DNA of 64,000 nucleotides, taken from the IMG/VR virus record IMGVR_UViG_3300035670_000112, positions 23,418 to 87,417 of that record, one strand, 5' to 3'. The position numbers were made by a program, and so were the translations under genes. Shown here piece after piece: positions 1 through 23,800 of the stretch. Each line of letters begins with the position of its first letter. The stretch's first letter is position 1. The notes under the pieces were generated by a model. It had not been told where the DNA came from. It worked only from the letters and a program-made list of their open reading frames with translations, and ran no database searches. Source of the DNA: a virus.

Positions 1-42
1 GAACATGCCGTATCAATGGCAAGGCATGTACTCAATATCTGA
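1..42 (+). CDS. C-terminal end of an upstream gene (partial)
   Basis: The first 13 codons of the window are open in the frame starting at base 1 and end in TGA at 40-42. This TGA overlaps the ATG of the next gene (TGATG), the tight coupling seen throughout this arm. Only about 13 residues are visible, so no family can be named. Confidence 0.45.
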   Translation, partial: EHAVSMARHVLNI

Positions 43-407
43 TGGCATCAAGGAACAGAAATGCAGGTCACGGCTGGGAAAGGGAATGCAGGGAACTGCT
101 TCTCAGATATTTTCCCAATGTGAAGACCTCAAGGGCAGAATCCAAAAGCAGGGATGATGAGAAGGTGGACCTGTGCAATACTGGACATCTGAACATCCAG
201 TGCAAGAATGTCTGTACAAGGGTGAACTATGTGGATCTACTCAATGAGATGCCTGATGAGGAAGGTCAGATCAATATGATCTTCGAGAAGAAGACCCGCA
301 AGACCCCTTCAGGGAGATTCCTCATGGAAGGCAAATATGTGCATCTCAGACTGGAGGACATGTTGAAACTGATGGACATCATTCATCTGGACACGGATAG
401 AAAGTAG
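42..407 (+). CDS. PD-(D/E)XK-type nuclease, resolvase-like
   Basis: A 121-residue protein with the layout of small restriction-endonuclease-fold enzymes. An N-terminal helix has G9, H10, G11 and E13; a basic stretch around R31 follows; then D43 and the strand I52-Q53-C54-K55, matching the E...D...QxK pattern of Holliday-junction-resolvase-like and phage nucleases. The role would be metal-dependent cleavage of phage or host DNA during replication, recombination or packaging. It starts inside the stop codon of the upstream gene and is followed four bases later by another small gene, so it belongs to the plus-strand early operon. The fold call rests on motif spacing only; substrate preference cannot be read from the sequence. 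Confidence 0.6.
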   Translation: MASRNRNAGHGWERECRELLLRYFPNVKTSRAESKSRDDEKVDLCNTGHLNIQCKNVCTRVNYVDLLNEMPDEEGQINMIFEKKTRKTPSGRFLMEGKYVHLRLEDMLKLMDIIHLDTDRK

Positions 408-690: not shown

Positions 691-1293
691 ATGACAATTT
701 ACATCAAACACGCAGGAAATTCAAAACCATTGGAGGTTGATTTCACAGGCACGACATTCGGTGAACTCAAGGCAGCAGCCCCTCAGGTCAACTGGGAGAA
801 CACGAATGTCATCATCCATTCGACACGTACACAGTTGATCAATGACAGTTCATTGATCCCGAATCAGGACAATCTGATCCTGTTGGTGGTACCTGCACGT
901 AACAAGGCAGGTGCACTGCCATATGCCTCACTGAAGCGGAATGATCTCCTTTCAGAGGTCAGAACGATCATCTCACAGGATCCCAATGCCTCCTCATACT
1001 TCGGGAACTACCCTCAGATGAAGACGGCTGCGATCCTTTCCCTTCTGAACGGTTACTCGTCAACTGCTTCCACTTCAAGTGCAGATGAACCTCTCATCTC
1101 ATCGATCGATGAGTTCAAGGTCCTTGAGCAGAAGTACGTTCAGTTGGTCAATGCAGTGAGCGATCTCAACGCATCGTTGGGAGCACTCGGCAATGTGATC
1201 TTTTCAGAGCAGCCTGAGGAGAGTGTCGGAGGAGTGAAGCTCAGTGAGCTTGATGCCGACTTCAGTTTCTTTGAGGCATCCCTCAGAGGTTGA
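691..1293 (+). CDS. Ubiquitin-like protein with helical C-terminal extension (PRTRC C/E-like or BilA-like)
   Basis: A 200-residue protein. Residues 1-70 read like a beta-grasp fold: strand (TIYIKHAG), strand ending at DFTG, a helix introduced by TFGELKAAAP, then strands NVIIHS and LILLVVPARN. A helical region (about 80-120) and an acidic tail follow. The last residues are ASLRG, so the chain ends in a single glycine; classical modifiers end in one or two glycines, although this may be chance in a protein with so long an extension. The gene lies directly upstream of E2-like, JAMM and E1-like genes, which is the strongest support for a modifier role. PRTRC protein C is a short ubiquitin-like protein, so the long extension is unusual. 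An intrinsic terminator follows 18 bases after the stop codon. Confidence 0.6.
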   Translation: MTIYIKHAGNSKPLEVDFTGTTFGELKAAAPQVNWENTNVIIHSTRTQLINDSSLIPNQDNLILLVVPARNKAGALPYASLKRNDLLSEVRTIISQDPNASSYFGNYPQMKTAAILSLLNGYSSTASTSSADEPLISSIDEFKVLEQKYVQLVNAVSDLNASLGALGNVIFSEQPEESVGGVKLSELDADFSFFEASLRG

Positions 1294-1310
1294 TGGTATA
1301 CCGATATGAT

Positions 1311-1351
1311 GGAAGGGGAGGCACAGGTTGCCTTCCTTTCCATTTTTTTTT
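1311..1351 (+). terminator. Intrinsic terminator between the modifier gene and the E2-like gene
   Basis: The arms 1311-1322 and 1330-1341 form a 12-bp stem with two G-U pairs, a 7-base loop, one A, then nine T (1343-1351). It lies between the ubiquitin-like gene (stop at 1293) and the E2-like start at 1378. It also shows that an apparent upstream extension of the E2 frame (from 1306) is not coding. Confidence 0.8.
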
Positions 1352-1377
1352 ATCATTCACAGAAAAATCCATTGACA

Positions 1378-2439
1378 ATGAAAGTATTCAGAATATATTC
1401 AGAGAGGTATCAGCAGCATTTCCATTTCAAGGGGGATGGCTTCACTGCAATGCAGACGGATCTGCAGGATTTCGGGAATGACGCGGAGTTCATTGACCTT
1501 TGGAGACAGGACGACACGGACATCATGATCTTACATGCCCCCTATCAAAGGTTATTGAAGACGGTCCATGACATTCTGGAGACCGCTGATGATCAGAAGG
1601 ATCTTTCCATAATGATCAGGTCATATCCCCAACAGGAACTGTATATAACCATACGGATAGGTGATGTGATCACAGACAATTCCCTTGAGATAGGCAATCT
1701 CATAAAGGATGTGTACATCATACAGCAGATGACTCTCTCCAGAACGGGATACAGATTGAATAAACCTCTGATGAGAAGAGGTACTTACAATGACCTTGAG
1801 ATCATGAATGAGTTCATACATCCCCATTCATCGAGGGAAGGCGTAATGTGTCTTGGGAACTCTGAGTTCAGTAGAGCCTATTTTAACAGAGTGATATTCA
1901 GGTTCGACATGTTCGAATATCTGATGTACCTCAAGGCATATCTGTCATGGGAAAGTCTTGAAGGGGGTCCTTACAGAAGGACGCATGAGTATTATGACAA
2001 CAGTATCGGTGTAAGGCCTAAGGTTCTCAGTGAGGGAACCATCGACAGTATCCTTAAAAGGATCGATCCCACAGGGTTCAGACCAAGGGTGGATATCTCA
2101 TCCTCATCGATGGAGATCAGGATAGAGGAGAGTGCCGTAAGGGAAATGTTCATTGCAGAAGGCGTACCGATGGCATCGCTTCATGGTAAGATCCCATCCA
2201 CGGAAAGCTTGAGTGATATCCCAAGACATGAGGTGTTCTCCAAACATCTTCTCCTAAAGATAAGATTCAGGGACGTTGAGATCGTTCCCCAGAGTGAAAG
2301 GTTCGATCCAGAGGTGTACAGGGAATATCTTGACAGCGTGTTCTCCTATGTTCCCAGTATCTACATAAAACAGTTGGAACACAGACTTCAGAGTGAACTT
2401 ATAGCAACATCACCAGAATTCAAATATGAATTGATATGA
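1378..2439 (+). CDS. E2-like ubiquitin-conjugating protein (PRTRC B-like or BilB-like)
   Basis: A 353-residue protein. Residues 148-159 read HPHSSREGVMCL, which reproduces the E2 active-site pattern HP-x-x4-G-x2-C-L with the spacing found in eukaryotic E2 enzymes (HPN...G..CL). The third position is His instead of Asn. Cys158 (codon 1849-1851) is the predicted thioester cysteine. The region before it (strands around LYITIRIGD and VYIIQQM) fits a UBC fold; the roughly 190 residues after it are not recognised. The start at ATG 1378 was chosen because the open frame upstream is occupied by a terminator hairpin. The stop overlaps the JAMM gene start by four bases (ATGA), so E2, JAMM and E1 are translationally coupled. 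PRTRC protein B is the likely family, on context and motif. Confidence 0.68.
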   Translation: MKVFRIYSERYQQHFHFKGDGFTAMQTDLQDFGNDAEFIDLWRQDDTDIMILHAPYQRLLKTVHDILETADDQKDLSIMIRSYPQQELYITIRIGDVITDNSLEIGNLIKDVYIIQQMTLSRTGYRLNKPLMRRGTYNDLEIMNEFIHPHSSREGVMCLGNSEFSRAYFNRVIFRFDMFEYLMYLKAYLSWESLEGGPYRRTHEYYDNSIGVRPKVLSEGTIDSILKRIDPTGFRPRVDISSSSMEIRIEESAVREMFIAEGVPMASLHGKIPSTESLSDIPRHEVFSKHLLLKIRFRDVEIVPQSERFDPEVYREYLDSVFSYVPSIYIKQLEHRLQSELIATSPEFKYELI

Positions 2440-3524
2440 AAGACACAGTAAAGACAAAGAAATACCCAGTGATAACAACCCCTTTGAGAGGGAGGATACT
2501 GATACCTGGTGGAGTGAAAAGAAAGATCGATCAACTCCATAGGAGCATCGGTAATGTGGAGTGGGCAGGATTCATAACCTATGAGAAGACAGCAGGATCG
2601 ATGTCAGTACCCAATGAACTTGTTCTCAAGGTACTGGACATATATCCCATGTCAATAGGCACACATTCCTATGTGGAGGCTGATAATCATGCCGATGACA
2701 TGTTGGACCTGTGTGACCGTGTACCGAGTTTCATGGGGTCCAGATACGGACTTGTGCATACACACCATACGATGAACACCTTCTTCAGTGGAACGGACAT
2801 CGATGAACTGCATGACAACGTGGACAAGTATTCCTCATACCTGTCACTCATAGTGAACATGAAGGATGAGTATACCGCAAAGATCGTCAGTCTTGTGGAC
2901 GTATCACCTAGAATGGTATCCATAAAGGAGGAGGATGAGGAGACACGGAGTGTACAGATAGGTGACGACACGGTACAGATGCTCATGGTCGACCTTGATG
3001 TGTCCATTGAGAAGGAACATGAGGACGATCCTGTGATATCACTCAGGATAGAGGAGCTCAGAAAGAGGAACAGAGAGAAGGAGACGGACTCTCAGAGATC
3101 CGTATCACCTACCTCAGGGACTGTGAGGACATCTTCTCCCCCTGTTCAGACAAGGTTCCCTTTCGACACATTCGACATGCCTATGACACATCATTATTCC
3201 GTGAACAGGTTCAATGCTGAGGTATATCTGAAAAGACTTCTCAGTCTTGACGATACGGTAGGCAATGTGGATCTCTACTCACTCCTGTTGGAAGAAGCAA
3301 GGGATGCCAATGACTACCCTGACTATATCGATATCTACTACGGGGAGATCGCAGAGGAATGCTATAACATGGCAATAAAGATGGTCGGAGGTGAGAAGGC
3401 CGATGAACTCATAAAGCTTGCAGTGGAAAGACTTTCCGACTATGAGAAGGACCCCAATGTCAGCCCTGTGGTCGCCAATGTGAAGCTGATAATGTCGTCC
3501 ATACTCAATGTACCCTCACTATGA
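2436..3524 (+). CDS. JAB/JAMM metallopeptidase, deubiquitinase-like (PRTRC A-like or BilC-like)
   Basis: A 362-residue protein with a complete JAMM zinc site: an upstream glutamate (E42 in VEWAGFITYE), then H108-T-H110, seven residues, S118, two residues, D121, exactly the HxHx7SxxD signature. In ubiquitin-like systems such enzymes process the modifier precursor or remove it from targets. Residues from about 195 to 240 are low-complexity and probably a flexible linker to a helical C-terminal domain. It overlaps the E2-like gene upstream and the E1-like gene downstream by four bases each. PRTRC protein A also carries a JAB domain, which agrees with the operon. The metal site looks intact, so an active peptidase is likely; the substrate is inferred from neighbours. 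Confidence 0.82.
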   Translation: MKDTVKTKKYPVITTPLRGRILIPGGVKRKIDQLHRSIGNVEWAGFITYEKTAGSMSVPNELVLKVLDIYPMSIGTHSYVEADNHADDMLDLCDRVPSFMGSRYGLVHTHHTMNTFFSGTDIDELHDNVDKYSSYLSLIVNMKDEYTAKIVSLVDVSPRMVSIKEEDEETRSVQIGDDTVQMLMVDLDVSIEKEHEDDPVISLRIEELRKRNREKETDSQRSVSPTSGTVRTSSPPVQTRFPFDTFDMPMTHHYSVNRFNAEVYLKRLLSLDDTVGNVDLYSLLLEEARDANDYPDYIDIYYGEIAEECYNMAIKMVGGEKADELIKLAVERLSDYEKDPNVSPVVANVKLIMSSILNVPSL

Positions 3525-4195
3525 AGACAGCACACATAAGATTCAACAGTGTCGACTGGTACGGTATACCCAAGGAGATGACCGTAGGAGGTGCAGGTAC
3601 CATAGGAAGTTGGCTTACCCTTCTGTTGGCAAGGTCTGGTGACCACGACATCATACTCTATGATGACGATACTGTCAGTGAGGAGAACATGGCAGGACAA
3701 CTGTACGGCAGGTCGCATGTAGGCATGCCGAAGGTGGAAGCGATGAAGGATATTCTGAACGGACTTGTGGACATGTCTGGCAACATAAGGCTGGACATAT
3801 ACGGCAAGAGGATACAGGAGGGCACTTACGTGTCCCCTGTATGTTTCTCGTGCTTCGATAACATGAAGGCAAGGAAGGACATGTTCAACAACTGGATGAA
3901 GAGGGATGACAGGGAACTCTTCATAGACGGTAGGATGAGCATTGAGACCTATGAGGTCTACACCGTAAGGAAAGGACAGGAGAAGGAGTATATGGAGACA
4001 CTGTTCGATGACTCCGAGATACCTGATCAGATATGTTCGCTGAAGGCAACATCACATACAGGGGCACTCATTGCTGGTAGGATGATGAGCATGTTCACCA
4101 ATCATCTGGCGAACAGTGTCTCAGGAATGGACATCAGATCGGTACCATTCAGCTTCAGAGAGGATATGGAATATCACATGATAACAACAGTATAA
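3521..4195 (+). CDS. E1/ThiF-like adenylating enzyme (PRTRC ThiF-like or BilD-like)
   Basis: A 224-residue protein with a Rossmann nucleotide-binding start (G24-A-G26-T-I-G29), the acidic strand ILYDDDTVSEEN (residues 45-56), Q60, and the GMPKVEAM segment with K71, all hallmarks of E1/ThiF/MoeB adenylation domains. D113 in CFDNMKAR matches the conserved magnesium-binding aspartate. Cys172 in ICSLKATS, just before the final helix, is a candidate catalytic cysteine. It would adenylate the modifier C-terminus and pass it to the E2-like protein. It is short, with one domain and no separate cysteine domain, as in other minimal bacterial E1 enzymes. It is coupled to the JAMM gene (ATGA) and to the next gene (TAATG). 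Confidence 0.8.
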   Translation: MKTAHIRFNSVDWYGIPKEMTVGGAGTIGSWLTLLLARSGDHDIILYDDDTVSEENMAGQLYGRSHVGMPKVEAMKDILNGLVDMSGNIRLDIYGKRIQEGTYVSPVCFSCFDNMKARKDMFNNWMKRDDRELFIDGRMSIETYEVYTVRKGQEKEYMETLFDDSEIPDQICSLKATSHTGALIAGRMMSMFTNHLANSVSGMDIRSVPFSFREDMEYHMITTV

Positions 4196-4554
4196 TGGAA
4201 ATAGTGGAATATGTTCCCAACAGGGAAAGATGGTCTGATGCTCCGAGGGTCAATGATGTTCAGATAGAGGGTGCAACATGTGTATCCCCGCTGTTCAAAA
4301 GTTACACGGTCAATTACAACTATGACAATGGACTGTTCGTAAAGGACCCTCATGTGGAAAATGTGATGCGTAACGTGGTACTCGCAGTATCGACAGGAAG
4401 GACGTTCAAACAGCTTCTGTATGAGGTGAGCATGCGACTCGACAGGTCATTGGATGACAGAGTAGGGAGAGAGACCTTTGCAAAGGTCATAGTGGAAGAG
4501 AGGATATCAGGGATATTGAACAGAATAAGGACAGAGAATGAAGGACAGGAATGA
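4195..4554 (+). CDS. Hypothetical protein, 119 aa, downstream of the E1-like gene
   Basis: A soluble 119-residue protein with an N-terminal strand-rich half (residues 1-55) and a helical C-terminal half. No metal or nucleotide motif is visible. Its ATG shares an A with the stop codon of the E1-like gene (TAATG), and its end overlaps the next nuclease gene by 17 bases. It is the last gene clearly coupled to the conjugation cassette and may be an extra subunit, target adaptor or unrelated. I do not recognise it. Confidence 0.55.
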   Translation: MEIVEYVPNRERWSDAPRVNDVQIEGATCVSPLFKSYTVNYNYDNGLFVKDPHVENVMRNVVLAVSTGRTFKQLLYEVSMRLDRSLDDRVGRETFAKVIVEERISGILNRIRTENEGQE

Positions 4555-5596
4555 TTATTTCAATTCAAGCGGTGTATCAAGGAGTCTCCTTGTAAAGCTA
4601 CTGGATCACCCCAGAAAGGTGAAGATGATGATGGACGGAGTCTATGCGGATCAGACCTCAGATGCACTTGAGAAGGGATCTGCATTCGATTCGCTCATGT
4701 TCGACACGCGACAGGAGTTCAACTCAAAATACCGTATAGCGGCAACAGCGAATCCGTTCCCTCAACGCAACACCAACAAGGGGAAGTTCGCATGTGAGTG
4801 TGAATCCATAGTGAAACAGATGATAGAGGCCGATGAGTTCTTTGACATCGATAATGTCTACGTGAAGGCCTATGCGGACTCTGGTATAAAGAATCCAGAT
4901 ATCAGAACCTCCATAAAGGAGTTCGAGGAAGCTGGAGGGAGAGCATATCTTGAGGAACTCTACGCCAATGCGAAATTCATCACGCTCTCTCAGGAGGAAT
5001 TCAACGGTCTGTCGGCCATGAAGGAGTCTCTGATGTCCCATGAGAACATCTCACATTTCTTCTGTGACAGTGTACCAGAGGATCATAGGGTGCTCAAAGG
5101 GAATGATGAGATGCTGTATCAGGTGGATGTAAGATGGCAGCAGGAGGATCTTGAGTGCAAGGCACTTCTGGACATAGTGTCGATAGACCATGAGAGAAGG
5201 GTCATAACAGGGATAGACCTCAAGACGACATCCTTCACATCTGCGGATACCACAGGCTCGATATTGAAGTTCAACTATCACTATCAGGCAGCATGGTACC
5301 GTCTTGCGTTGGAGGCATTCGCTGCTCAAAGATTCGAAGGATTGGACTATACCGTAAGTGATCAGTTCCATTTCATATTCGTCTATACGGACACTCTGTA
5401 CCCTCCCACGATATTCACCATGTCATCACATGACATGAAGTGTGCACGTGATGGGGGTCATAGATATGGAAGACCTGTCAAGGGTATCTGTCAACTGTTG
5501 AGCGATCTGAAATGGCATATTGACCATGATGCGTGGGACTATTCAAGGGACACCTATGAGAACGGTACCCTGATCTCCACCATCTATGACCGTTGA
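4538..5596 (+). CDS. RecE/Cas4-like PD-(D/E)XK exonuclease
   Basis: A 352-residue protein resembling phage exonucleases of the RecE/DUF3799 and Cas4-like group. The N-terminus (YFNSSGVSRSLLVKLLDHP) is the usual opening, followed by EKGSAFDSL at 45-53, where many relatives have a histidine instead of F50 or D51. The catalytic core is D212 in ALLDIV, then D227-L-K229 in GIDLKTT, and the YHYQAAWYR helix at 247-255. It would degrade or resect double-stranded DNA for recombination-dependent replication or repair. It overlaps the preceding small gene by 17 bases and is followed by an unknown gene and a uracil-DNA glycosylase, which together suggest a DNA-processing block. Confidence 0.72.
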   Translation: MKDRNDYFNSSGVSRSLLVKLLDHPRKVKMMMDGVYADQTSDALEKGSAFDSLMFDTRQEFNSKYRIAATANPFPQRNTNKGKFACECESIVKQMIEADEFFDIDNVYVKAYADSGIKNPDIRTSIKEFEEAGGRAYLEELYANAKFITLSQEEFNGLSAMKESLMSHENISHFFCDSVPEDHRVLKGNDEMLYQVDVRWQQEDLECKALLDIVSIDHERRVITGIDLKTTSFTSADTTGSILKFNYHYQAAWYRLALEAFAAQRFEGLDYTVSDQFHFIFVYTDTLYPPTIFTMSSHDMKCARDGGHRYGRPVKGICQLLSDLKWHIDHDAWDYSRDTYENGTLISTIYDR

Positions 5597-8233: not shown

Positions 8234-8665
8234 ATGACAAGGGAGGATGCCGACTTCAACACGATGTTGATAAGAGAGGAAGTGAATGAGCTTCTGTCCG
8301 CACTGTCAACGAATAATGACCTTACAGAACTGTGCGATGCATATTTCGATGTGCTCTGGGTGGTCACCCAATCAGCAATGCTGAACGGGCTCAATATAAA
8401 CGACCTCTGCAGAGCGGGCTTTTACAGCAACATGTCAAAGTTCTGCAACACATACGAGGAGGCACTTGATACTGTGGAAGCCTACGCCAAGGGAGAACAT
8501 CCTGCAAAGTATGGTACACAGATCGAATGTAGGATAGACGAGAACAGGGATGGGAGTTTCACTGTAAAGAGAGCATCCGATTCCAAGATACTCAAGTCGA
8601 TCAATTTCAAAGAACCTGATTTTTCATTCATAGTACAGAGAGCAAAGGAACATGGGACAGTGTGA
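8234..8665 (+). CDS. MazG-like all-alpha NTP pyrophosphohydrolase
   Basis: A 143-residue protein with the metal-binding helices of the MazG/dUTPase-2 superfamily: E15-E16-x-x-E19 in LIREEVNELL and E32-x-x-D35...D39 in TELCDAYFDVLW. These enzymes hydrolyse (d)NTPs to monophosphates and pyrophosphate, here probably to tune the nucleotide pool or lower the host alarm nucleotide. The ATG at 8234 is preferred to one at 8111 because the upstream part of that frame overlaps the coding region of the previous gene. Residues from about 85 to the end form an extra C-terminal domain that I do not recognise. It overlaps the reductase gene by 14 bases. Confidence 0.68.
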   Translation: MTREDADFNTMLIREEVNELLSALSTNNDLTELCDAYFDVLWVVTQSAMLNGLNINDLCRAGFYSNMSKFCNTYEEALDTVEAYAKGEHPAKYGTQIECRIDENRDGSFTVKRASDSKILKSINFKEPDFSFIVQRAKEHGTV

Positions 8666-9212
8666 AGAGTACTTCAAAGGTGATGAGCTTGCAGTTTCAG
8701 TATGGCAGGGTAAATATGCTGCAGATGGGGAGATCACCCCTGATGACATGCATAGACGCATGGCAAAAGAGTTTGCAAGGATTGAAAAACAGTATTCTGA
8801 TTCTTCAGAACCCTGGGAAATAAGAGTTGTAAAGACTGAGAATCTGAGCAGATACGGAAAAGATAGAAAACCTCTTGTAGAAAGTGTGATATACGATCTG
8901 TTCAAGGATTTCAAGTACATAGTACCTCAGGGTTCCATTATGTACGGGCTTGGAAGGAATGATAAGTACATCTCATTGAGCAATTGCTTTGTCATTGATT
9001 CAGCAAAGGACAGTTATGGAGGCATCTTCAAGACCGAACAGGAGCAGATCCAATTGATGAAACGCAGAGGAGGTGTAGGTCATGATATCTCAAACTTACG
9101 TCCTGAAGGTACTGCAGTGAGCAATTCAGCGGGAACATCAACAGGAGTGGTCTCTTTCATGGAAAGATTCTCCAACGCTACAAGAGAGGTTGCTCAAGCA
9201 GGAAGAAGAGGT
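8652..9212 (+). CDS. nrdJ: Class II (B12-dependent) ribonucleotide reductase, exon 1
   Basis: Exon 1 encodes residues 1-187 of a reductase interrupted by a group I intron. It carries the N-terminal helical start (LAVSVWQGKYA), the substrate-site segment LSNCFVIDS with the first redox cysteine, and the glycine-rich GGVGHDISNLRP region, ending in AQAGRRG. Without splicing, translation would stop two codons later (AAA TAA inside the intron). Joining base 9212 to 9579 restores GRRG-ALMLSI, the continuous sequence expected for the family, giving a protein of 864 residues. The enzyme makes deoxynucleotides for phage replication. It overlaps the pyrophosphohydrolase gene by 14 bases. Confidence 0.88.
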
Positions 9213-9578
9213 AAATAAAAATGTGCCTCAAAACTATGTGAACCTATAAATATAGGGTGTCTGAGGAGATTCAGGCTAACGGTGGAAACTATAATTTTGC
9301 CAAAAAATTATAATAATACCGTGCTAAGCATTTGTATATTTATGTTTTTGTTAGAAGGAAGAAGAAATAATCCTATTCCAAAAGGTAAAAGAAAGGGATT
9401 GTTCTTTGAGTATACAAATGAAAGTGTAACGACTATCGAACGGGTAACTGTCACAGTTGACAGTGAGTAACCAAGTAGAGTACATTTAAGGTGAAATTCC
9501 TTAAGTGGAAGCGCATAGGTGAGTAGAAACGTAGTTCTACTTGAAGATATAGTCTAAACGTGAAGAAATTCACTTTTG
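9213..9578 (+). ncRNA. Self-splicing group I intron in nrdJ
   Basis: This is a 366-nt insertion between codons of the reductase. The 5' exon ends GAGGU (9208-9212) and pairs with GCCUC (9225-9229), giving a P1 helix with the diagnostic U-G pair at the splice site. AAUGU (9220-9224) pairs with the first bases of exon 2, GCAUU (9579-9583), as P10. The last intron base is G (9578). The element AAGATATAGTC (9544-9554) matches the conserved S/P7 strand, with GACTAT upstream at about 9430 as its likely partner. No homing endonuclease frame is present, so it appears to be a mini-intron that splices but cannot home by itself. Confidence 0.9.
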
Positions 9579-11612
9579 GCATTAATGTTAAGTATTGATA
9601 TCAATCATCCTGATGTTGCCAAGTTCGCAACGATCAAATCGGATCTTACAAAAGTTACAGGAGCAAATATATCAATAAGGGTCAATGATGAGTTCATGAA
9701 AGCTGTTGAGAATGATGAAGATTATATTCTCAGATGGCCCTGTGATAAAGAAATAGATGAGGAAATTGCTTTTAGACACCCATATAATGAAAGTATAATA
9801 GGCGAGTGGGGAAGTGTCACAAAGAAAATTAAAGCAAAAGAACTTTGGGATACTATCATTGAACAGGCAAGAAATAATGCTGAACCAGGTGTAATGTTCT
9901 GGGATAATGTGATGAAAGGCTCTCCTGACAGTGTATATGAGGAATACAGACCTGTCAGCAGTAATCCCTGTGGTGAACAGTTCCTTCAACCGTACGATAG
10001 TTGTAGACTGATGTGTCTGAATCTGTTCTCGTTTGTAAATGATCCATTCACTGATGATGCAGAGATCGATTATGATAAACTGTATCAGGTGGCCTATGAG
10101 CAACAGAGACTGATGGACGATCTTGTTGATCTTGAGATAGAGCATGTCGACCGTATCATTGAGAAGATAGAGAATGACCCACAGGATGACCTTATCAAGG
10201 GTACTGAACTTCAGCTTTGGAAGAACATCAGACAGACTGCACAGAGTGGTAGACGTACAGGCAGTGGTATAACTGCTCTTGGAGACATGCTTGCTGCAAT
10301 AGGAGTAAAATATGATTCTGATGAAGGTCTTGAGGTAGTTGAGAAAGTGATGTCGACCAAGATGAGAGGTGAGTTGGACTGTACGATCGATCTTGCCATT
10401 CTGAGAGGAAAGATTGAGGGATGGGATCCTAAAAAGGAATTCGGTACAGTAGTGGGTTATAAGGACACGAGATCAGTGGATATAAAGACTATAGGGAATG
10501 ATTTCTACCTTTCATTGATCAGAACCTTCCCTGAACAGGCTTCCCGTATGATCGATCACGGACGGAGGAACATCTCCTGGAGTACGATTGCTCCGACAGG
10601 CAGTGTAAGTATCCTTACAGGAACTTCAAGTGGTTGTGAGCCATTGTTCATGCCTTTCTATATGAGAAGGAAGAAGGTCAATCCTGACAATACTGATGTA
10701 CGGGTGGATTTCGTTGATCAGAATGGGGACTCATGGCAGGAATTTGCAGTATTGCATCCTAAATTCAAGGATTGGTGCATCACAGCATTCGGATTGAATG
10801 AGACTGCACAGGAAAGATTGAATGATAAGGATACTTTACAGAATCTTTTCACGAAGTCTCCATGGTACGGTGCAACTGCAAATGATATCGATTGGAAAAA
10901 ACGAGTGGAGATGCAAGCTGTGTTGCAAAAATATACTACCAATGCGATCAGTACTACACTTAACTTGCCTGAGGATACTACTACAGAGACCGTGAGTGAG
11001 ATATATCTGCACTCTTGGAAACAAGGTCTCAAAGGACAGACGGTTTATAGAGAAGGGTCACGTAGCGGAGTACTGGTGAATATAGATAACAAGCAGCAAA
11101 AGACATCATTTGAGTATCATGATGCTCCTAAACGTCCTTTATGTCTGCCTGTGGACATTCACACAACGGTTTCCAAAGGAGTCAAATGGAATGTCATTGT
11201 CGGACTGTTCGATGGTAGACCATATGAAGTGTTCGCAGTACCTTACTTCACCAATGAGACATCTCTGGAACTATGTAAGGTCAAAAAAGGAAGATACGAC
11301 CTGCTCAGGAACGGTGAAACATACAGTGAGGACATAACCTCTCAGATCACTGATGAGCAGGATGTACTGACGCGAATGGTAAGTACAGCATTGCGACACG
11401 GAGCTGATATCACATTCATCGTAGAACAGTTGAACAAGTCCCATGGTGATATCACCAGCTTCAGTAAAGCTATTGCAAGAACTCTAAAGAAATACATAGA
11501 TGAGAGGAAGATGGTATCAAGAGCAACCTGCACTGAATGTGGAAGTAATAACCTGGTTTTTGAAGAGGGTTGCCTTTCATGTAAGGACTGCGGTTCGTCC
11601 AAATGTGGGTAG
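9579..11612 (+). CDS. nrdJ: Class II (B12-dependent) ribonucleotide reductase, exon 2
   Basis: Exon 2 encodes the remaining 677 residues. It contains SNPCGEQ, with the thiyl-radical cysteine and neighbouring glutamate, followed by SCRLMCLNLF, then APTGSVSILTGTSSGCEP and the C-terminal barrel. The C-terminus ends in a four-cysteine ribbon (CTECGSNN...CLSCKDCGSSKCG), typical of adenosylcobalamin-dependent NrdJ. There is no ATP cone at the N-terminus of the joined protein. The open frame appears to begin at a TTG (9576), but that codon belongs to the intron end. Bacteroidota phages often carry their own reductase; a B12-type enzyme would work without oxygen, fitting a gut host. Confidence 0.9.
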   Translation, partial: ALMLSIDINHPDVAKFATIKSDLTKVTGANISIRVNDEFMKAVENDEDYILRWPCDKEIDEEIAFRHPYNESIIGEWGSVTKKIKAKELWDTIIEQARNNAEPGVMFWDNVMKGSPDSVYEEYRPVSSNPCGEQFLQPYDSCRLMCLNLFSFVNDPFTDDAEIDYDKLYQVAYEQQRLMDDLVDLEIEHVDRIIEKIENDPQDDLIKGTELQLWKNIRQTAQSGRRTGSGITALGDMLAAIGVKYDSDEGLEVVEKVMSTKMRGELDCTIDLAILRGKIEGWDPKKEFGTVVGYKDTRSVDIKTIGNDFYLSLIRTFPEQASRMIDHGRRNISWSTIAPTGSVSILTGTSSGCEPLFMPFYMRRKKVNPDNTDVRVDFVDQNGDSWQEFAVLHPKFKDWCITAFGLNETAQERLNDKDTLQNLFTKSPWYGATANDIDWKKRVEMQAVLQKYTTNAISTTLNLPEDTTTETVSEIYLHSWKQGLKGQTVYREGSRSGVLVNIDNKQQKTSFEYHDAPKRPLCLPVDIHTTVSKGVKWNVIVGLFDGRPYEVFAVPYFTNETSLELCKVKKGRYDLLRNGETYSEDITSQITDEQDVLTRMVSTALRHGADITFIVEQLNKSHGDITSFSKAIARTLKKYIDERKMVSRATCTECGSNNLVFEEGCLSCKDCGSSKCG

Positions 11613-20879: not shown

Positions 20880-23800
20880 TACTGACAGGTTCTTTTCTGG
20901 TTACGCATCATTTCCTTGGTCTCATCTGGAAGAGCATTGAACTCCTCCTGAGTTATGTTGTTCTCTTCCATTATCATCATATCGATGTCTTCATTGGATA
21001 CAGAAGTGAGGGTCACATCTGCACTGACCTTCTTTGTTGTTACAGGAACCTTACTCTCCTTCAGTTCCATGATCTTTTCGAACATGCTCTTCACGTTCTT
21101 CCCTGAACCTATACGTTCCCTCAACTGTTGAAGTTGTTCTGGACTCAATCCCTGTATGCTCTTGAACAGAGGATGTGATATCATCGCTCCTTCCAAAGGT
21201 GCTATACTGTCAATGTCGAATCCTGGAAGTATATCGGATATTGTCAATACCGCCTCTGCCGCATCTACAGGTTTCACTGCTCTATCCTTTATCCTTGTAG
21301 GGGTGGCAGAGGGTTTTCTGGTGGAAACTATCTGAGTATATGTCATGGTATCGGACATTGCATTGTCATAATTGAACTCAAGGAACTCATTGTTTGAACC
21401 CAACAGAGGTACTTCCCTGTATATGGCATCATCCCTTTCGATAGAGTGGAACACCATCAGTGCCGACCTCATCTGTCCTTTCGTCTTCAATACCGTCCTT
21501 ATGAACTCCAACGGTTGCTTCTCAGTGTTATTGACCTTGTTCAGAGGTACCTTCACATATGTCACTCCCTCACTTACCATGAAGATACTGTCCGCATTAC
21601 TGGTATCGAAGTACTTGATGAATGGAAGACTGCGGTACATGTTCCTTATTATCTGAGAGGATATCTCCTTGGATATATTCACGGATCTCTCATCATCGAA
21701 CATGTTCCTATTGAACTGATTCTCCATATACTGTGTGAAGTATATGCCGTTATCGTCCTTCAATTCTGCCCAGTACATGGTAGGCAGAATGTCACTCAGC
21801 TTGCTCGGAGAGGTCACGAACCCTGTTGCAAATATGGAATATGCTGCAATGTCGTTCGCAAGTGATGATACTTTGGGATCCACATCACGCAACATTGAAA
21901 GGAACTCCATCTTGATAGACTGCATCTGTGTCGCATCGATACCTGTACGGTTCATCCTTATCACCTTCATACCTGATACATTCTCTGAGGGGATGACGTT
22001 CAGATACTTCAACAGTGGGATATAGGGGCTTTCAGGGTTCTCATTCATGAAAGTTGTAATGGCAGTCGGGGTATCATTGATCACCCGTTGGAACTCAGAT
22101 GCTCTGAAAGGTCCGAATGATGATGCCAGTGCTGATGATATCGCATAGTGCATAAGGTTGACCGTCTCTGGCTGTATCCTCTGTCCCAATGGAAGGGAGG
22201 CCTTCATAGCATTCTTGACCGTATGATAGATGGATTCACCATATCTGTCGGTGTAAGGTATGCCAGTTGAATTGTATATGTCTGCCAAGGATGCCTCAAG
22301 TCCTCTCTCTCTGAATGCTGCAGACCATCTGATAGGGTTGGACTCCACCATTGAAAGGAGTTCTCTCACCCCGTAAACGATGCCTAACTCCTCAGCATTG
22401 AGTATGGTATCGACATCATCGAGTTTACTGAGCGTATGTGCAACTGTCGGACCAGCGGCATTCTTGATGGAATCGTATCTCATTGCACGTGTCATAGGTG
22501 CAACAACACCTGTCGACACCTCTGCAACCCTTTTGAGCAACCTGTAGACGGCAAGTGAATTGACAAGTTCCAGATCGGTCATTGCCGATACATCCTTTTC
22601 ACCCATCTTCACAAGGTCCATTATGCTTCCTGTGCGTGTAGTAGGATCGAACTTCAATGCCTTTGTGCTCAAGTAGTTCACCATTTCATCATATGCAGCA
22701 CGTCCCCGTCTTCTGATATACTCATCAGTGATATCATCCATACCTGAAAGGTCGAGTCTGTCCACGGAACGGGCTCCTTTGGTAGCTCTGATGACCTGTG
22801 GAGTATTGAAGAACAGTACAGATGCCTCAAGGCCGAAACCCATTCTGACAAGGGTGGCTATCATATCAGCGGTCACCATGGTTATATTGAGGAATGATGC
22901 CACAGGATCCTTTCCGTTATCTACCGCAGCCGCAAGGAACTCCTTCAGCTTCACAAGGTCATCGAATGTGGTACCTTCGTCCTTTCCACTCAGACTTATC
23001 TTCTCCATCCCGTTGAATTTCAAAGGATATTTGAGTGTTACGTTACCTTGCATGACAAGTGCCTGATTGGACACATGGTTTGCAAATATACCGATAAGTC
23101 CGTTACCCGTCATATTCCTTTCAAATACTTCCCTTGAGGTTGAGTTCAACAGAGGGTTCAGAGTGTCGGTACCCATGGAATCCTTCTCGGTCTTTTTCGG
23201 GGAAACCTCCTTTACAAGTGCCTTGAGCGTCTCAAAGCCTCCAGGAGTGGTTATCTCCTTTGCAGTCCTTGCATCTGAGAGTACAGAGAATGCAATGTCC
23301 AATTTCAGATTGTCCCTTGATGCCTTTGTTTCCATCCCTGATGGTACCTTTCTGAGACTGTACTTTCTGAATGTACCCGTATCCTCATCAAAGGCAATTC
23401 CTTCCTTATTGGCAAATTCCCTACGTGAACGGAGTTCATCGAAGTCTGGGATCTCCTTCCTTACGATATCCCTCTTGAGTTTGGAAGACCATTGCATGGT
23501 CGATATGTATGACTGGAATCTCTCCTCAGCACCTTCCACCTCTGAACTGTACTCCTCTATGTTGTAAAGGATACCGTACAGTTTATCGATGTCAAAGTCA
23601 AGACCTGCTATCTTGGTGGCCTCCTCTGGAAGGATGATCTGCCCCCCTACACCCTGTGGAAGGAAACCTATGATCTTGATATGGAACATCGAATACTTGT
23701 GCTCTGTAGGTATACGGTAGAAGACTGCTTTCAGTATATCAGGGTCCACTCCCTCTATCTTCGATATGTCTATGATACCATTCTTGTCGGCATAACGTTC

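Follow-up and report, generated by a model that had tools for sequence, protein, structure and literature searches.

Does a bacterial virus run a ubiquitin-like conjugation pathway of its own? This question is raised by positions 691-4195 of a 64,000-nucleotide stretch of viral DNA (the window; positions 23,418 to 87,417 of the 87,417-base IMG/VR record IMGVR_UViG_3300035670_000112). Four intact open reading frames (ORFs), all on the + strand, encode there a ubiquitin-like protein (Ubl), an E2-like protein, a JAMM peptidase and an E1-like enzyme, in this order (Table 1). An initial annotation, made from the sequence alone, had described a complete conjugation cassette in a crAss-like phage. 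ORF coordinates bear out its gene order and the 4-base overlaps that it saw among the last three genes (E2/JAMM and JAMM/E1); the Ubl and E2 genes are separated by 12 bases, and base 4195 is common to the E1 gene and the next ORF. Completeness of the cassette is also well supported by its invariant residues and by the Ubl and E2 folds. We give a probability of about 0.74 to the reading that these four genes form a ubiquitin-like conjugation pathway borne by phages, which is part of the core genome in one crAss-like branch and its Flavobacterium-phage kin.

In the proposed cycle, the JAMM peptidase would trim the pro-Ubl after Gly74, and the E1 would adenylate this glycine and probably carry the Ubl on Cys172. 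The Ubl may then be handed to Cys182 of the E2, which would attach it to target proteins without a recognisable E3, and the JAMM peptidase could take it off the targets again. We infer every step of this cycle from what the genomes display, namely the four genes and how they are ordered, active sites that do not vary, a beta-grasp fold and wide conservation.

Residues 1-70 of the Ubl were modelled by AlphaFold2 (AF2) at a pLDDT of 93-98 with the order of a beta-grasp (strands 2-7 and 14-17, helix 23-29, strands 38-42 and 62-68), and Foldseek matched the model to ubiquitin, NEDD8 and ISG15 with a probability of about 1 and a TM by target of up to 0.73, in agreement with the initial naming of this protein as ubiquitin-like. 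Residue conservation was counted over 74-79 distinct homologues per protein family. Gly74 is kept in all 74 Ubl homologues and is the sole invariant Ubl residue in alignment A6; the motif is mostly Lys-Ser-Gly, with Ser (63) or Ala (9) before the glycine. Confidence of the model falls right at this residue, with a low-confidence linker at residues 71-80 and helices after it. The helical C-terminal extension is missing from many homologues. Tails have a median of 107 residues; they comprise 1-5 residues in 14/74 and exactly one residue (K, R, F, H or Y) in nine, and others end 50-200 residues past the glycine. None of the 74 stops at the glycine itself. Because no Ubl ends there, the protein is probably a pro-form, which the adjacent JAMM peptidase would mature by exposing Gly74.

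The five JAMM ligands listed in the initial annotation are exact and do not vary among homologues (Table 1), and the JAMM family profile matches CSN5 and archaeal JAMM1. The E1 nucleotide-binding motif is likewise present as a conserved glycine-rich loop, and D50, N56, Q60, K71 and D113 are invariant in addition (79/79 each). The E1 profile matches UBA5, MccB, ThiF and MoeB. Conservation points to Cys172 as the candidate catalytic cysteine, in a context similar to that of the conserved Cys (PSCS) of PRTRC ThiF. This cysteine, the invariant Gly74 with its tail and the wide conservation of the cassette were all absent from the initial annotation. As a separate observation, the JAMM gene is interrupted in six relatives (L020, L030, L052, L067, L071 and L093), and the E1 gene also in L067 and L071; the L020 interruption (L020:5684-6137) is a clear group I intron with 79.5 bits.

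The E2 signature of a histidine-proline motif and a downstream cysteine was found as H172-P173-H174...C182, in which H174 and C182, together with G184, are kept in 79/79 homologues and H172 in 69/79. Its spacing is that of the eukaryotic HPN...C motif. In the E2 model, most of the core has a pLDDT >84, and a helix, four strands, the HPH...Cys motif and further helices follow each other in E2-like order. All of the top 16 PDB structure matches are E2/UEV proteins, and in a viral structure library other crAss-like E2s came first, with the E2 of African swine fever virus (ASFV) at rank 11. The E2 fold assignment is thus supported, but more weakly. Sequence searches of Pfam, NCBIfam, PADLOC and PDB recognised neither the E2 nor the Ubl. 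The window E2 had zero tblastn matches among phages; a query from crAss001 matched 74 phage records. The E2 is also the fastest-evolving component, with a close-pair dN/dS median of 0.45, compared with 0.33 for the Ubl and 0.21 for both JAMM and E1; in several close pairs (L021/L022, L031/L032) dN is about equal to dS. Such fast change would fit substrate selection.

A scan of IMG/VR found 136 relatives, and 80 of them were retained. By family profiles, the order Ubl-E2-JAMM-E1 occurs in 77/77 loci with contigs that extend far enough. Profile search picked up the Ubl in 72/80 loci, and inspection in four more (L028, L041, L044, L048); L029 shares the coordinates of L028, and the contigs of L052, L063 and L092 start inside the cassette. 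The order is also kept in 11 annotated phages, including the Bacteroides phages crAss001 and DAC15 and the Flavobacterium Fpv phages; in a twelfth, cr106 (L008), the Ubl is split by an insertion, an HNH gene. Hence the survey of related crAss-like genomes found the gene order kept, and the cassette was not found to be absent or broken in close relatives. The four proteins have correlated pairwise distances (Mantel r 0.70-0.88, 0/500 permutations), which indicates that they travel together; the recurrence of these families in one order in divergent phages, combined with the correlated distances, excludes chance. Among 84,980 bacterial and archaeal species, the cassette was met only on three small contigs of metagenome-assembled genomes, two of them with all four genes, and these are probably misbinned phage. 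In cultured relatives the genes are annotated as 'hypothetical', 'metalloprotease' or 'thiamine biosynthesis protein'. A fifth conserved gene was sought after E1, where the downstream genes fall in 23 mostly unlinked clusters, and none is claimed. The gene after E1 in the window (4195-4554) is fast-changing and could be a substrate adaptor, a target or unrelated. Matches to an Enterocloster phage were rejected as spurious, the 602-aa protein not being an E1.

By its markers, the source genome is crAss-like: the portal matches phrog_6547 at 2e-113, with 36% identity to the crAss001 portal, and the major head protein matches phrog_11589 at 2.8e-111. E1 relatives found by tblastn comprise 80 phage records, with identities of 40% to the Flavobacterium Fpv phages and 31-36% to Steigviridae (crAss001, DAC15, cr111 and others). 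One branch of the E1 tree holds the gut Steigviridae, and the other holds Flavobacterium phage Fpv3 and metagenome contigs. The window falls in the latter, where it belongs to a clade of eight with full support, apart from the gut Steigviridae, and the initial attribution to a virus of gut Bacteroidota is therefore unsupported as regards the gut. A portal search returned 139 records, including seven named CrAssphage, two Cellulophaga and two Azobacteroides; none with these names is among the E1 matches listed. Judged by these names, the cassette is missing from some crAss-like phages.

Several observations weigh against a conjugation pathway. No E3 was recognised. The fold matches of the E2 have weak E-values (best 0.044) and its model a mean pLDDT of only 74. 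The mature Ubl would end in Ser/Ala-Gly instead of Gly-Gly. Moreover, residues 56-60 of the E1 read N-M-x-[GN]-Q, versus N-x-x-R-Q in PRTRC ThiF; position 59 is G in 68/79 and N in 9/79, so that the arginine is missing from nearly all members. The membership of the E1 in the ThiF superfamily and the existence of Ubl-E1-JAMM trios in sulfur metabolism (PMC1779556) lead to the question of whether the 'thiamine biosynthesis' label could be right and the cassette be a sulfur-carrier pathway of ThiS/MoaD or CysO-Mec type. We regard this as very improbable, because one of the proteins is a dedicated E2-fold protein, in which Cys and HxH are invariant, and because neither a rhodanese nor a class V aminotransferase (cysteine-desulfurase type) was found in the virus record; in addition, the neighbours are replication genes.

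Among known conjugation systems, the initial annotation had pointed to PRTRC, whose plasmid operons read ParB-E-C-F-B-A-ThiF and share with the phage cassette a Ubl with C-terminal Gly, an E2-like protein, a JAB and a ThiF in the same relative order. In hhalign profile comparisons, E1 matched PRTRC ThiF at 99% and JAMM matched A weakly at 50%, whereas E2/B reached 0.3% and Ubl/C 0.2%. Kinship with PRTRC thus holds for E1 and JAMM only at the superfamily level and fails for E2 and Ubl; membership was rejected, since the E2 and Ubl profiles are unrelated and the cassette lacks ParB, E and F. Furthermore, operon type 6d of Iyer et al. 2006, which we equate with PRTRC, has E2s without the upstream histidine (PMC1779556), and the phage E2 has this histidine. 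Type II CBASS shares the E1 and JAMM superfamilies through Cap2/Cap3, and the phage E1 matches E1-E2 models, but in the cassette E1 and E2 are unfused and a Ubl of its own is present; no cGAS-like gene adjoining the cassette was recognised in profile scans of the window or in the neighbourhoods of relatives. Lambda tail proteins I and K also combine a phage Ubl with a JAB, but lack E1 and E2 and are located in tail genes (PMC1779556). Xanthomonas jumbo phage PhiXhv-12 carries a Ubl-like protein, an E2-like HPH...CLG protein and a homologous E1 side by side (L013:2736-6612). Its proteins are one of 140 aa ending ...KASGG, one of 892 aa with HPH...CLG, and a ThiF homologue; unlike the pro-Ubl of the cassette, the Ubl-like protein ends exactly in SGG. 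No JAB was detected in the 227-kb PhiXhv-12 genome with Pfam Prok-JAB, a blunt model for which the window JAMM itself scores only E 0.003.

The closest likeness in gene order is to an antiphage system. Bil (BilABCD) has separate Ubl, E2, JAMM and E1 genes in that order, and the likeness is one of components and gene order. The phage cassette differs from Bil in being phage-encoded, in its fixed place in a replication module, and in its single beta-grasp Ubl with a removable tail. Its shared components and order suggest that the cassette could be a weapon against competing phages, tagging rival virion proteins as Bil reportedly does. In line with this, the Borg paper (PMC12660748) refers to Hor et al. 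2024 for bacteria that conjugate a Ubl and thereby interfere with phage assembly, and the E2, the likely substrate selector, evolves fastest. However, the fixed place by the primase and the wide, vertical-looking conservation are unlike sporadic defence islands, and PADLOC matched none of Ubl, E2 and JAMM. A weapon is thus possible but unlikely; of the two uses put forward initially, tagging of phage or host proteins is kept as the favoured guess and action against rival phages is less favoured.

Rapid E2 evolution could also reflect counter-defence, in which the cassette would tag or de-tag host immune proteins, for example by reversing host CBASS or Bil-type conjugation. The E2 flanks are relaxed or diversifying (pN/pS about 0.75 outside the core vs 0.56 in it), the JAMM peptidase could deconjugate, and phages can in principle counter ubiquitin-like defences. 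De-tagging would need JAMM alone, yet the active sites of Ubl, E2 and E1 are intact in the examined loci, and we consider counter-defence rather unlikely.

In accordance with its genomic position, we tentatively suggest that the cassette modifies phage or host proteins in DNA replication or cell takeover. Within the conjugation reading this is a guess at somewhat less than even odds, and the neighbours of the operon speak for it, being primase, helicase, exonuclease and UDG genes. A core role in infection is preferred over accessory defence or a weapon because the cassette keeps a fixed place within the replication module, occurs in both branches and is nearly absent from cellular genomes. It may be, though we would not yet bet on it, that a lineage of bacterial DNA viruses processes, conjugates and removes a Ubl of its own as a core element of replication or takeover. 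Known bacterial Ubl-conjugation functions are largely antiviral, and a core-genome pathway in cultured phages would reverse that picture. If true, Ubl conjugation would have a viral use outside defence, one that predates the split of the gut Steigviridae and Flavobacterium-phage branches. A misleading 'thiamine biosynthesis protein' label on abundant human gut phages would be corrected, and a core viral pathway has apparently been overlooked. The literature searched gave no account of ubiquitin-like systems among crAss-like phages; this search did not cover subscription papers and preprints, and a prior description is possible. Without a Pfam model, the E2 and Ubl offer new sequence families for studies of ubiquitin-system evolution, and since cultured phage-host pairs exist, the targets of phage tagging are directly testable.

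Table 1. Cassette features and replication neighbours, in window coordinates unless marked (G000, the virus record)
Feature	Position	Strand	Basis
Ubiquitin-like pro-modifier, 200 aa	691..1293	+	AF2 model, Foldseek
Predicted mature Ubl, residues 1-74, end Lys-Ala-Gly	691..912	+	G74 conservation
Proposed JAMM cut after Gly74	between 912 and 913		putative
Helical C-terminal Ubl extension, predicted released	913..1290	+	AF2 model
E2-like conjugating enzyme, 377 aa	1306..2439	+	predicted fold
E2 active-site motif HPHSSREGVMC (H172-P173-H174...C182)	1819..1851	+	conservation
JAMM/JAB metallopeptidase, 362 aa, long C-terminal extension	2436..3524	+	Pfam Prok-JAB E 0.0032 (single protein)
JAMM catalytic residues E42, H108, H110, S118, D121	2559..2798	+	75/75 each
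E1-like activating enzyme, 224 aa	3521..4195	+	Pfam ThiF 1.3e-15, phrog_15670 2e-43
E1 nucleotide-binding Gly-rich loop, residues 24-29	3590..3607	+	G24, G26, I28 78/78
Candidate E1 catalytic cysteine C172	4034..4036	+	79/79; catalytic role putative
Primase (replication neighbour)	G000:22521-23459, gene end = window 42		
RusA-like resolvase (replication neighbour)	42..407	+	phrog_244 1.6e-6
Exonuclease VIII-like, PD-(D/E)XK (replication neighbour)	4538..5596	+	phrog_412 2.5e-27, Pfam DUF3799 1.6e-9

The surroundings of the cassette form a replication module with primase, RusA-like, exonuclease, UDG and helicase genes. In annotated relatives the four genes lie between primase and UDG/exonuclease genes, and the primase family occurs in the upstream neighbourhood of 73 loci. 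Upstream of the window, the DnaB-like helicase gene is apparently interrupted by a GIY-YIG-like homing endonuclease ORF (G000:18883-19692). The ribonucleotide reductase gene is found in two ORFs (window 8652-9218 and 9576-11612), and this split is probably an intron, because the Pfam coordinates of the two ORFs adjoin (1-76 and 79-523 of the barrel domain) and a sub-threshold group I intron match (E 2.7e-6) inside the split gene ends at 9575.

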